Positions 50,124-54,086 of a DNA stretch of 64,000 nucleotides are shown here, one piece after another. The notes under the pieces were generated by a model. It worked only from the letters and a program-made list of their open reading frames with translations. It ran no database searches and was not told where the DNA came from. The stretch covers positions 1,444,437 to 1,508,436 of the forward strand of contig NZ_JH600070.1 in the NCBI RefSeq assembly GCF_000245015.1, given 5' to 3'. The position numbers and the translations under genes were made by a program. Source of the stretch: Beggiatoa alba B18LD (GTDB lineage Bacteria > Pseudomonadota > Gammaproteobacteria > Beggiatoales > Beggiatoaceae). Every line of letters begins with the position of its first letter. Positions within the stretch are counted from its first letter, which is position 1.

Positions 50124-50203
50124 ATGCAAAAAATTCATGACCGAGGCTATAAACGGTTATTTTCTAATAAAACCTTTTTTCGCCAATTGCTTCAATCATT
50201 TGT
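50124..50203 (+). pseudogene. N-terminal fragment of an Rpn-family nuclease gene
   Basis: The frame reads MQKIHDRGYKRLFSNKTFF then RQLLQSF, matching the first 27 residues of the intact gene at 51886 closely in DNA and protein. Homology stops abruptly at 50203, where the HNH gene sequence (reading the other way) begins. The rest of this copy is missing or lies beyond the insertion, at 51112. Confidence 0.85.
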
Positions 50204-50946
50204 TTTAATGTCTCTTTATCTGTAGCATAATGTAATTTTCTATGACATGTTGGACAAACAGCAACGGTATTTTCTAAACTGTCTGTTCCTCCTTCGGCTA
50301 GCGGGACTAAATGATGAACCTCAATATATTTTTTACCACTAGGCATATCAAAACCCTCATAATCACAATTAGGCATTTGACATTTATACCCTGCCTTTCT
50401 TTTTACATAAACATTTATTTTATTATTCCTTCTAAAAGTGGTTATAGTAGTAGTGATTTGTTGAGTTGGTTCATCTGTAGTAGTGATTTGTCGAGTAGTT
50501 GGTATCCCCTCCTCTAAAAAACCAATATTTATTTGCTCATAAATAGCTTCTCGAATTGCATTATCATCCATATTTAGTCCAGCCAATTTAGACAAGTTAA
50601 ATATAAAGATATCATAACCATCGGTTGCAAATATGATTTTACCATTTTGAGTTAAATATGGTATGATTTCCCTTCCCATTCGTATTTCGGGCGGTCTGCC
50701 AGAGCCTGTTCGCTGACTTCCATAAAAAGAAGCCTTCAATTCTTGATCTGAAACTAACACTCTAACACTAATTATCTCCTTGGCATTTCCATTTGCTGAT
50801 GGTTGTATTCTTAGATGCTCAAAAACCTTTAGTTGTTCCTTGTTAACAATATAAGCTTGTTTGTTAATATCTGTACATGAGATATCTTTTGTACCTACTA
50901 CTTTAAAAGTGTCTTCAATAAACTCAATTAGCTCTGCTTCCGTCAT
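50164..50946 (-). CDS. HNH endonuclease (McrA-like), 260 aa, inserted in an Rpn gene
   Basis: The C-terminal domain has the zinc-binding HNH pattern: CQMPNC, IEVHHLVPLAEGG, ENTVAVCPTCH and RKLHYA, as in McrA-type and other restriction HNH nucleases. The N-terminal 150 residues hold GSGRPPEIRMGRE and may recognise DNA; no named family is certain. The last dozen residues (MIEAIGEKRFY and stop) are read from the antisense strand of the Rpn N-terminal fragment, so the C-terminus was formed by the insertion. A role in restriction or defence is inferred. Confidence 0.82.
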   Translation of the reverse strand: MTEAELIEFIEDTFKVVGTKDISCTDINKQAYIVNKEQLKVFEHLRIQPSANGNAKEIISVRVLVSDQELKASFYGSQRTGSGRPPEIRMGREIIPYLTQNGKIIFATDGYDIFIFNLSKLAGLNMDDNAIREAIYEQINIGFLEEGIPTTRQITTTDEPTQQITTTITTFRRNNKINVYVKRKAGYKCQMPNCDYEGFDMPSGKKYIEVHHLVPLAEGGTDSLENTVAVCPTCHRKLHYATDKETLKQMIEAIGEKRFY

Positions 50947-51007
50947 TTCTATTTCCAGTATATTCTATTACTTCAATAATCTTTAACAGTAATTATTAAA
51001 AAATCAT

Positions 51008-51076
51008 AGTTTTATTAATAAAACCCCACACTATTGACAATATTAATGTATTTTGGAGAAAAATTGAAATGCATTC
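51008..51076 (+). pseudogene. Degenerate 3'-end remnant of an Rpn-family gene
   Basis: TTTATTAATAAAACCCC...TATTGACAATATTAATG...TTTTGGAGAAAAATTGAAA corresponds closely to the last 20 codons of the copies ending at 51485 and 51853 (LLIKLYTIDNIDVFWREIET). It lies upstream of the HNH gene start and outside any frame. Confidence 0.75.
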
Positions 51077-51116
51077 ATACTTTTTATTATATAACTAATT
51101 GTAAATATGTAAAAAC

Positions 51117-51485
51117 TTGCAACTGATAGTAGAGTATGGTCGTCGGACAGTCACAGATTACGAAAGTTTAGAGCGCGTTTATCAAGATAAGTATGAGGTC
51201 AAAGAAATGTTAGACAGAGCAATGGAACGGATGCGAGAACAGTTTAAGGCTGAAGGAAGATTAGAAGGTAAGCGCGAGGGGAGATTAGAGGGCTTAGAAG
51301 AAGGTGTATTTAAAGGAAAAGCAGAAGCCTTAATTATGCTGTTAGAAAATCGGTTCGCACCTTTGACGATAGAAGAGAAAGAACGTTTATTTCAGCTTAC
51401 TCATGAAAAACTCGTGGATTTATTGATAAAACTCTACACAATTGACAATATTGATGTATTTTGGCGAGAAATTGAAACACATTGA
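51117..51485 (+). pseudogene. C-terminal Rpn fragment b; may be translated from ATG 51207
   Basis: It corresponds to residues about 209-340 of the intact Rpn protein (YGRRTVTDYESLERVYQDKY...). The nuclease core is missing, replaced by the HNH region. GAGG at 51195-51198 lies eight bases before an in-frame ATG at 51207, which would give a 92-aa acidic/basic coiled-coil-like protein (MLDRAMERMREQF...WREIETH). It contains one GKREGRLE unit. It could be a simple remnant or a free-standing antitoxin-like product. Confidence 0.65.
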
Positions 51486-51496
51486 GATTTTTCTCT

Positions 51497-51853
51497 ATGA
51501 CTTACTGTCAATATGAGGTCAAAGAAATGTTAGACAGAGCAATGGAACGGATGCGAGAACAGTTTAAGGCTGAAGGAAGATTAGAAGGTAAGCGTGAGGG
51601 GAGATTAGAAGGTAAGCGCGAGGGGAGATTGGAAGGTAAGCGCGAGGGGAGATTAGAGGGCTTAGAAGAAGGTGTATTTAAAGGAAAAGCAGAAGCCTTA
51701 ATTATGCTGTTAGAAAATCGGTTCGCACCTTTAACAGTGGAAGAGAAAGAACGTTTATTTCAGCTTACTCATGAAAAACTCGTGGATTTATTGATAAAAC
51801 TCTACACAATTGACAACATTGATGTATTTTGGCGAGAAATTGAAACACATTGA
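51497..51853 (+). CDS. C-terminal Rpn fragment c, free-standing RpnS-like protein, 118 aa
   Basis: This tandem duplicate of fragment b is nearly identical in DNA from TATGAGGTC (51512) to the stop. It has its own ATG at 51497 (MTYCQYEVKEMLDRAMERM) and the conserved second start at 51527 preceded by GAGG. It contains three copies of a 24-base unit encoding GKREGRLE, where fragment b has one. No catalytic residues are present. By analogy with intragenic antitoxins of Rpn nucleases, it might neutralise the intact nuclease encoded 33 bases downstream; otherwise it is a decaying duplicate. Confidence 0.6.
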   Translation: MTYCQYEVKEMLDRAMERMREQFKAEGRLEGKREGRLEGKREGRLEGKREGRLEGLEEGVFKGKAEALIMLLENRFAPLTVEEKERLFQLTHEKLVDLLIKLYTIDNIDVFWREIETH

Positions 51854-51885
51854 GATTTTAGTGTTAAGTTACCATAAATATAACT

Positions 51886-52908
51886 ATGAAAACCATCCAT
51901 GATAGAGGATATAAACGACTCTTTTCCAATAAAACCTTTTTTCGCCAATTACTACAATCATTTGTCCCAGAACCTTGGGTGCAAGAAATTGATTTTGAAA
52001 GTAGTGAGCGTTTAGATAAATCGTTTGTTTCACAACATTACAAAGAAACGGAAAGCGATTTAATTTATAGGGTGAAATTTAAAGGTGAAGAGGCATATGT
52101 TTATATTCTGCTAGAATTTCAATCGCGTGTCGTTTGGTTTATGGCATTGCGTGTTTTACACTATATCTGTAGTTTCTGGCTAGACTATGCAGAAAGTCAC
52201 CCAAAAATCAAAAAGCTCCCGCCTATTTTTCCAATTGTGTTGTACAACGGCGAAAAGAGATGGACAGCCCATACCAATCTACGTGATATTTTAGAAAAAC
52301 CTGAGTTATTAGATAAATATACCCCTGACTTTCGTTTTTTCAAAATAGCCGAAAATGAATACCCTCAAGAACGACTCTTGCAAATTAAAAATGTGGTTTC
52401 TACTTTATTCCTTGCAGAAACTTATCCTAACGATATAGAACTGCTAAAAACAAAAATACTAGACTTATTCGATGATGAGGCAGAGAAAGAAGCAACGTCT
52501 TTATTACTGAACTGGTTTTTACAACTTGTAGAACATGGTCGCCGTCCAGTAGAAGACTACACAAATCTAGAGCAAGTGTATCAAGATAAATATGAGGTGA
52601 AAGAGATGTTAGACAGAGCCATGGAACAAATGCGCGAAAAATTCAAAGCAGAAGGCAGACTTGAGGGAATTTTAGAGGGCAGACGTGAGGGCAAACGAGA
52701 AGGCAGACGTGAAGGACTAGAGGAAGGTGTTTTTAAAGGAAAAGCTGAAGCCTTAATTACCTTATTAGAAACCCGTTTCGCACCTTTGACAATAGAAGAG
52801 AAAGAACGTTTATTTCAACTTTCTCATGAGAAACTTATAGAATTGTTGATAAAGTTCTATCAAATTGACAATGTCGCGGCTTTTTGGCGTGAGATTGAAA
52901 CGCATTAA
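51886..52908 (+). CDS. Rpn family recombination-promoting nuclease / putative transposase (PD-(D/E)XK), 340 aa
   Basis: The N-terminal two-thirds is the PD-(D/E)XK-type domain of this family: HDRGYKRLFSN at the start, the acidic residue in ETESDLIYRVKF, and LLEFQS (the E-x-Q element). HYICSFWLDYAESHP and PPIFPIVLYNGEKRWTA follow. The C-terminal 100 residues are charged, with variable GRxEG repeats (GRLEGILEGRREGKREGRRE), and end WREIETH. An internal GAGG-ATG at 52594-52608 could start a 100-aa C-terminal product. Members are linked to DNA cleavage, RecA-independent recombination and phage defence. Confidence 0.85.
   Translation: MKTIHDRGYKRLFSNKTFFRQLLQSFVPEPWVQEIDFESSERLDKSFVSQHYKETESDLIYRVKFKGEEAYVYILLEFQSRVVWFMALRVLHYICSFWLDYAESHPKIKKLPPIFPIVLYNGEKRWTAHTNLRDILEKPELLDKYTPDFRFFKIAENEYPQERLLQIKNVVSTLFLAETYPNDIELLKTKILDLFDDEAEKEATSLLLNWFLQLVEHGRRPVEDYTNLEQVYQDKYEVKEMLDRAMEQMREKFKAEGRLEGILEGRREGKREGRREGLEEGVFKGKAEALITLLETRFAPLTIEEKERLFQLSHEKLIELLIKFYQIDNVAAFWREIETH
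52594..52608 (+). promoter_or_regulatory. Possible intragenic ribosome-binding site and start (RpnS-like)
   Basis: GAGG (52594-52597) is followed after eight bases by an in-frame ATG at 52606 (codon 241 of 340). The same spacing and sequence occur in fragments b (ATG 51207) and c (ATG 51527). Confidence 0.5.
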
Positions 52909-52946
52909 TTCAAGATATTAAGTAAATATTAAAAAATGTTATGAAG

Positions 52947-52980
52947 TCACACGTGATAATAGCGGTGTGATTTTTATTTT
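52947..52980 (+). terminator. Likely terminator of the Rpn locus
   Basis: Six-bp stem TCACAC / GTGTGA is followed by TTTTTATTTTT, 38 bases after the Rpn stop. Confidence 0.55.
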
Positions 52981-53006
52981 TATCCTTGTGAATGACTGAA
53001 TGAATA

Positions 53007-54086
53007 ATGACTAATCTGATTACTGAATGGGTACGCCCAGAAATTCGCCAATTGAATGCTTATCATGTTCCGCCTGCGCATAAGATGATAAAACTTGATG
53101 CGATGGAAAACCCTTATCGTTGGGATGCAGATTTAATTGAACAGTGGTTAAATGTGTTACGTGAGGCGCAGTTAAATCGTTATCCTGACCCTACTGCGAA
53201 TAGTGTTAAAGGGGGATTACGTCGTGTTATGCAAATCCCTGATGAATTGGATATTTTATTAGGCAATGGTTCTGATGAAATTATCCAATTACTTGCTTTA
53301 ACCGTTGCTGAACAAAATCGCGTTGTGCTTGCGCCTGAACCCAGTTTTGTGATGTATCGGATGATTGCAACGTTTACGAATATGCTATATGTGGGTGTAC
53401 CACTACATTCAACGGATTTTTCTATCGATTTAGAAACATGGTTAGCCGCTATTGCGAAACATCAACCTGCTTTAACGTTTATCGCTTATCCTAATAATCC
53501 AACGGGTAACACTTTTTCTCAGCATGAGATTGAAAAAATTATTCAGGCAACAAAAGGCTTAGTGATTATCGACGAGGCTTACGAACCATTCTCCGAACAC
53601 AGTTTATTATCATTGGTTAGTCGTTATCCAAATGTTTTATTAATGCGAACGCTCTCGAAATTAGGGCTTGCTGGTTTACGTTTAGGCATGTTAGTAGGGT
53701 CGCCAACGTGGTTAAATGAAATTGATAAGGTTCGTTTACCCTATAATATCAATGCATTAACTCAGCTTAGTACCGAGTTTGCCTTACAACATTATCAGGT
53801 GTTGAAAAAACAAACGGAGCAAATTAAGCTCGACCGCACTCAGTTATTAGCGGATTTACGTGCTATTAAAGCCGTTCACGCATGGGATAGTCAGGCAAAC
53901 TTTATTTTGTTTCGTGTTCCAAATGCAAAAATGGTTTTTGAACATTTAAAACAGCAAGGAATTTTAATTAAATGTTTGGATGGTGGACATCCGTTATTAG
54001 CAAACTGCTTACGTGTCACGGTCGGCACTGCGGATGAAAATCAGGCATTTTTGACAGGGTTAAAACTTGCTTTAGCGAATGTATAA
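53007..54086 (+). CDS. hisC: Histidinol-phosphate aminotransferase
   Basis: This PLP enzyme of histidine synthesis converts imidazole acetol phosphate to histidinol phosphate. Features are MIKLDAMENPY at the N-terminus, LGNGSDEIIQLL, AYPNNPTGN, VIIDEAYEPF and the PLP lysine in RTLSKLGLAGLRLG. The length of 359 aa is standard. It stands alone, with no other his genes in the window. Confidence 0.95.
   Translation: MTNLITEWVRPEIRQLNAYHVPPAHKMIKLDAMENPYRWDADLIEQWLNVLREAQLNRYPDPTANSVKGGLRRVMQIPDELDILLGNGSDEIIQLLALTVAEQNRVVLAPEPSFVMYRMIATFTNMLYVGVPLHSTDFSIDLETWLAAIAKHQPALTFIAYPNNPTGNTFSQHEIEKIIQATKGLVIIDEAYEPFSEHSLLSLVSRYPNVLLMRTLSKLGLAGLRLGMLVGSPTWLNEIDKVRLPYNINALTQLSTEFALQHYQVLKKQTEQIKLDRTQLLADLRAIKAVHAWDSQANFILFRVPNAKMVFEHLKQQGILIKCLDGGHPLLANCLRVTVGTADENQAFLTGLKLALANV

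Follow-up and report, generated by a model that had tools for sequence, protein, structure and literature searches.

Putative free-standing rpnS genes out of register with the adjacent Rpn nuclease gene in Beggiatoa alba

An Rpn nuclease gene and its broken and free-standing relatives

The window, by which we mean the whole 64,000-nucleotide stretch of Beggiatoa alba B18LD DNA that was analysed, carries an intact Rpn nuclease gene of the RpnL type (51886-52908, + strand, 340 aa). In order, the locus consists of an N-terminal remnant of a second rpnL copy (here called 'a'), an HNH endonuclease gene, the tail of 'a', two free-standing C-terminal copies (b and c) and the intact rpnL. An earlier note on this DNA, made from the letters alone, had described an intact Rpn gene preceded by two tandem C-terminal copies, and this arrangement is confirmed: the frames of both b and c run uninterrupted from their ATG as far as the native stop. 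The note listed b, c and the intact gene correctly; it missed the fourth, decayed copy 'a', which is split around the HNH gene.

From its internal-type ATG, copy b (51207-51485, + strand) encodes 92 aa with five four-residue repeat units (quartets), and has GAGG at 51195-51198. Its 5' extension (51117-51206, + strand), with a possible TTG start at 51117, is homologous to the part of rpnL upstream of the internal start. Copy c (51527-51853, + strand) encodes 108 aa from its internal-type ATG, with nine quartets and GAGG at 51515-51518; alternative starts lie at 51497 (ATG) and 51482 (TTG), and homology to the intact gene starts about 17 nt before the ATG. Over 247 ungapped nucleotides, the DNA of b is 96% identical to that of c and 74% identical to that of the intact gene; the b product shares 85% identity with the RpnS part of the intact protein. 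All three lie close together on one strand, with 41 nt from the b stop to the c ATG and 32 nt from the c stop to the rpnL ATG, and no terminator-like site was found in a scan of 50900-53050. The strongest promoter-like site of the scanned stretch (51113-51086, - strand; 11 of 12) lies upstream of the HNH gene.

Copy 'a' survives at its two ends. Its N-terminal remnant (ORF at 50124-50225, + strand; homology at 50143-50203) corresponds to the first 28 codons and is 89% identical to the intact protein. The decayed C-terminal tail (51011-51069, + strand) differs from b by five nonsynonymous and three synonymous codon differences in 21 codons, and its stop codon has been lost just downstream. In place of the body of 'a' stands the HNH endonuclease gene (50164-50946, - strand; PF01844, 1.5e-11; PADLOC mREase_IV, 4.2e-15 over the HNH part). 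At its 3' end this gene runs antisense into the N-terminal remnant, the last codons (IGEKRFY) being read from antisense rpn DNA. We considered the HNH protein as a partner of Rpn and do not count it as part of the system: its matches, in 7 of 24 relatives, are without exception distant (31% over 88 residues at best). More simply, it is a gene now standing where copy 'a' was. No rpn match is found in the 9 kb surrounding the hisC orthologue in the congener (G001) or in the corresponding 8 kb in G003, so that synteny gives no date for the array.

The intact protein passes the cut-off of the Transposase_31 domain PF04754 fivefold (108.8 bits against 21; E 3.5e-31), and narrowly misses the threshold of TIGR01784, the NCBIfam model of an Rpn subfamily (50.1 bits against 52.1, over residues 5-281). 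Residues D6, D58, E77 and Q79, of which the last three are catalytic, are invariant in alignments of 10 (A1) and 16 (A2) relatives. Their spacing equals that of RpnA residues D11, D63, E82 and Q84, whose mutation abolishes or alters activity according to the RpnA report (PMC5350276). The earlier assignment of the gene to the Rpn family is supported by the domain match and by the invariant catalytic D, E and Q of a PD-(D/E)XK core. An AlphaFold2 model built from 16 sequences (mean pLDDT 69.5) had no match at E<=0.001 in a Foldseek search of the PDB, and PADLOC gave no match for the intact protein. The A2 profile weakly matches gamma-delta resolvase in the PDB (E 0.07-0.25). Rpn C-termini of the L107 and L117 type, from outside Beggiatoaceae, may resemble a resolvase-type helix-turn-helix, unlike the tail in the window.

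Inside the intact gene, a GAGG ribosome binding site and an in-frame ATG at 52606 (together 52594-52608, + strand) begin a predicted RpnS-like reading of 100 aa (52606-52908, + strand), with seven quartets at about 52654-52737. The earlier note had stated that GAGG stands 8 nt before in-frame ATGs at 51207, 51527 and 52606, which holds for all three, and had suggested looking for the same spacing in homologues. Among 75 distinct full-length relatives, 73 have an SD-like motif at an internal ATG of the corresponding region, compared with 26 of the 387 remaining in-frame ATGs, although the relatives are phylogenetically non-independent and the internal ATG was chosen as the candidate with the best motif behind the nuclease domain, a choice that favours the result. 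Of the 75 genes, 47 belong to the gene's own family (Beggiatoaceae by inference); the remaining 28 come from other groups. In 71 of the 73 genes, the Glu codon within the motif is GAG, against 657 of 2276 (28.9%) elsewhere in the same genes; the same non-independence applies, and this bias would still be very unlikely by chance given even fifteen independent lineages. In both GAA cases (one L071 gene and L072), GGAG is kept by way of the preceding codon. The two genes that lack the motif at an internal ATG are L123 and L053. In L053, from the congener, the internal Met is replaced by Val (GTG) with GAGG kept 8 nt upstream, a natural swap of start codons. The internal Met is invariant in the 16 A2 proteins, which span several phyla. 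As a feature of sequence conservation, the internal start is real and stands far above chance.

Free C-terminal copies at other rpn loci

In E. coli, a separate rpnS is found beside rpnL in two cases (rpnE with ypaA/rpnES, and rpnC with rpnCS), each time as a single downstream copy (Zhong et al. 2023, PMC10327210). The genome of B. alba B18LD itself contains 11 PF04754 domains, of which ten lie in full-length frames and the other in a frame of 202 residues, so that the several diverged Rpn copies for which the earlier note had proposed a search are present. Searches with two query subfamilies, beyond which more divergent copies may exist, turned up no fewer than eight free C-terminal copies here and a further eight in the congener G001. 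Matches to part of the tail or repeats only, such as G001:C1:1452405-1452566 in a 129-residue frame, were set aside from this count. All 16 free copies begin upstream of the internal start and reach, or nearly reach, the native end. Three N-terminal-only pieces are present across the two genomes, each beside a C-terminal piece.

By eye, the break points of c, L006, L011, L014 and L056 fall about 9-17 nt before the ATG; the two L056 copies share one junction and have a weakened SD. Similar break points, also placed by eye, occur outside the family in L091, L092, L107 and E. coli rpnE/rpnES. Homology begins further upstream in b, L016, L052, L054, L057, L058, L061 and both L007 copies, and the break point of L096 is hard to place by eye. 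At L007 (C2:2801301-2802788 of the B. alba genome), an rpnL has a premature stop, its C-terminal part is open in another frame and a second free copy follows. Here the nuclease appears to have been lost and the RpnS part kept twice.

A survey of the class found a match in 19 of 140 genomes and yielded few new free copies. In Poribacteria, L101 together with G165:C1:550.6-555.7 kb contains four full-length rpn frames in tandem that differ in repeat number, as well as a C-terminal-only copy of 146 residues that has, by eye, 11 quartets against 7 in the next gene.

Repeat number, constraint and possible roles of the free copies

RpnS blocks RpnL, and the number of four-residue repeats in its first helix varies (PMC10327210). 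When RpnC was studied, only RpnC_S of equal repeat number blocked RpnC_L, a rule that rests on one protein with one added repeat and may not hold in the present subfamily; RpnA and RpnB showed no cross-inhibition (PMC10327210). In the window, the first repeat of the short product starts at residue 17, within the 8-20 residues after the internal start that are taken to mark an RpnS. Relative to the intact gene, b and c differ by -2 and +2 quartets.

Such differences are also seen in distantly related bacteria. Of 16 pairs outside E. coli, 15 have a free copy whose repeat region differs from that of the adjacent RpnL, and L006 alone is matched. Pairs from the genus were taken from the 12 of 16 free copies that have an adjacent full-length gene, there being none beside L016, L054 and the two L007 copies; L086 and L088, which lie beside N-terminal-only pieces, and the 146-residue copy of L101 are likewise outside the count. 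Among the E. coli loci, which were picked for diversity from 40 and 60 listed rows and not at random, the repeat number of rpnE differs from that of rpnES at all 11 loci with rpnES (12 loci fetched; 8 of 8 distinct pairs; figures include one extra tail residue), and the repeat stretch of rpnC differs by eye from that of rpnCS at each of the six loci where rpnCS is intact (5 of 5 distinct pairs). Altogether, 28 of 29 distinct pairs are out of register, the 13 distinct E. coli pairs among them. At L092 the two copies differ by -25 residues, which is no multiple of four. Within the genus, five copies from four loci (L011, L052 twice, the first of L056, and L057) share at least 99% identity with the neighbour over the aligned part, and all five are mismatched. 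Among the other RpnL paralogues of the B. alba genome are ones that have 8 and 9 quartets. The length from the internal start is equal in c and the paralogue L005 (both 108 residues), and the two sequences visibly differ.

Because only 0.6 matches in 8 would be expected at random for rpnE, the observed zero is compatible with independence and gives no sign of active avoidance. Close full-length RpnL paralogues mostly differ in repeat number too, and the mismatch may therefore be mere drift. The data do speak against a requirement that a free copy match its neighbour. In the literature searched, which included the main text of PMC10327210, we came upon no report of a difference in repeat number between free RpnS and its neighbours.

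These counts bear on the claim of the earlier note that b and c guard the adjacent nuclease. According to this proposal, the two copies would provide extra RpnS that inhibits the intact RpnL, being cotranscribed with it in the usual antitoxin-first order. The tight spacing on one strand, the scan clear of terminator-like sites and the resemblance of b to the RpnS part of the intact protein all speak for it. However, five and nine repeats face seven, inhibition in the RpnC experiment required equal numbers (PMC10327210), and nearly all free-adjacent pairs are out of register. We therefore regard such guarding as unlikely and do not retain the claim.

Between b and c, there are 6.5 synonymous and 1.5 nonsynonymous changes, an excess of synonymous changes with P(N<=2 of 8) of 0.0014, or 0.011 under a laxer null. 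Pooled pN/pS is 0.16 for 14 free copies compared with the nearest full-length gene and 0.20 for six RpnL pairs, values that gene conversion among the copies may have affected. The pool omits comparisons in which synonymous sites are saturated or nearly so (b and c with R1, and the RpnL pairs R1-R2 and R2-R4), as well as pairs of free copies and second comparisons (the first L007 copy with R4, and the L014 copy with R12). Constraint on the free copies seems roughly equal to that on the C-terminal ends of full-length genes, and for b and c it may date in part from the time when they formed the 3' end of a full-length gene. The small segments had earlier been described as separate ORFs; intact as they are, b and c look like constrained, translatable antitoxin genes.

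It is also conceivable that rpn 3' ends duplicate and decay often, and that b and c are young, non-functional leftovers. The rpn arrays appear to be born by tandem duplication (PMC10327210), and copy 'a' has decayed. In E. coli CH4811 (L155), rpnCS is frameshifted and rpnC is open; free copies can therefore decay. Nevertheless, every one of the 16 C-terminal-only copies of the genus keeps the stretch from the internal start to the native end or near it, and both the low pooled ratio and the mostly synonymous changes between b and c stand against decay, so that we think this explanation quite improbable. A store of silent alternative C-termini, which would recombine into rpnL and switch repeat number and internal antitoxin together, is very improbable: repeat numbers are hypervariable among the families seen, and E. 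coli EC20 (L134) has a single rpnE with an rpnES-type tail, as expected from deletion between two copies, but a silent store needs neither a start site nor amino-acid constraint, and exchange at this locus has not been recent, the DNA identity of b and c with the intact gene being only about 74%.

We consider it probable that rpnL copy 'a' left b and c behind as free-standing rpnS antitoxin genes, and that neither inhibits the adjacent nuclease. An rpnS unit would consist of the 3' end of rpnL plus the internal ribosome binding site. Together with the N-terminal and tail remnants, b and c would be the leftovers of a second rpnL, whose nuclease part has presumably been lost and whose place the HNH gene now takes. 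We expect that b and c are translated, that their products fold and dimerise like E. coli RpnS, and that they bind RpnL of matching repeat number. If the number must match for binding, b and c would for this reason leave the adjacent nuclease uninhibited, and that nuclease would rely on its own matching RpnS, encoded inside its gene. The targets of b and c, if any, might be the lost parent, alleles coming in from outside or another paralogue.

More tentatively, we suggest a possibility that we think less likely than not: it may be the lack of register itself that favours the retention of free rpnS genes. Such genes would encode orthogonal antitoxins that spare the resident RpnL-RpnS switch and neutralise Rpn nucleases of another repeat number (the lost parent, a paralogue or a transferred allele), and would thus be immunity genes in a contest between Rpn alleles that extends across phyla.

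Separate rpnS genes appear intact in several phyla and constrained in the present genus, yet their repeat number is unlike that of the adjacent nuclease. This raises the puzzle of conserved antitoxin genes whose repeats do not match those of the neighbouring gene. Should the published repeat rule hold generally, the adjacent nuclease would not be the target of free RpnS, and what free RpnS does and why the repeats are hypervariable would be directly testable in laboratory E. coli.

Comparison with known Rpn systems

Separate rpnS genes beside rpnL, as well as tandem rpn arrays, were already known (PMC10327210), and b and c represent a further case. The present locus extends the E. coli examples by one that has two copies and no parent.

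The intact gene can be compared with E. coli RpnA (PMC5350276), with which it shares PF04754, equally spaced catalytic D, E and Q, and a C-terminal helical tail with four-residue repeats. When the family profile was compared with PDB sequences, the match to the RpnA_S structure 7TH0 was not significant (E 0.76).

Like b and c, rpnES of the E. coli rpnE-ypaA/rpnES pair is a separate rpnS copy that adjoins an rpnL and has a repeat number unlike that of its neighbour. In that pair, the unit starts at the SD that precedes the internal start and ends at the stop, and the TAA of K-12 rpnE runs directly into AAGGAGAGATTAATG. However, rpnES is one copy located downstream of its own parent, whereas the present locus has two copies upstream of a different rpnL, and their presumed parent is broken.

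The E. coli rpnC-rpnCS pair also resembles the present locus, in that a small separate copy lies beside rpnL and has a repeat stretch of different length. In contrast to b and c, which keep the internal-type start, rpnCS uses a new start of its own, and the copy is located about 68 nt downstream of rpnC. Its length differences, of 6-14 residues, are not multiples of four, whereas those of the present locus are whole quartets.

As separate, complete genes beside an rpnL, b and c correspond to a free RpnS of the ypaA type. That type would also call for a repeat number equal to the neighbour's; the numbers at the present locus are unequal, as they are in the E. coli examples examined.
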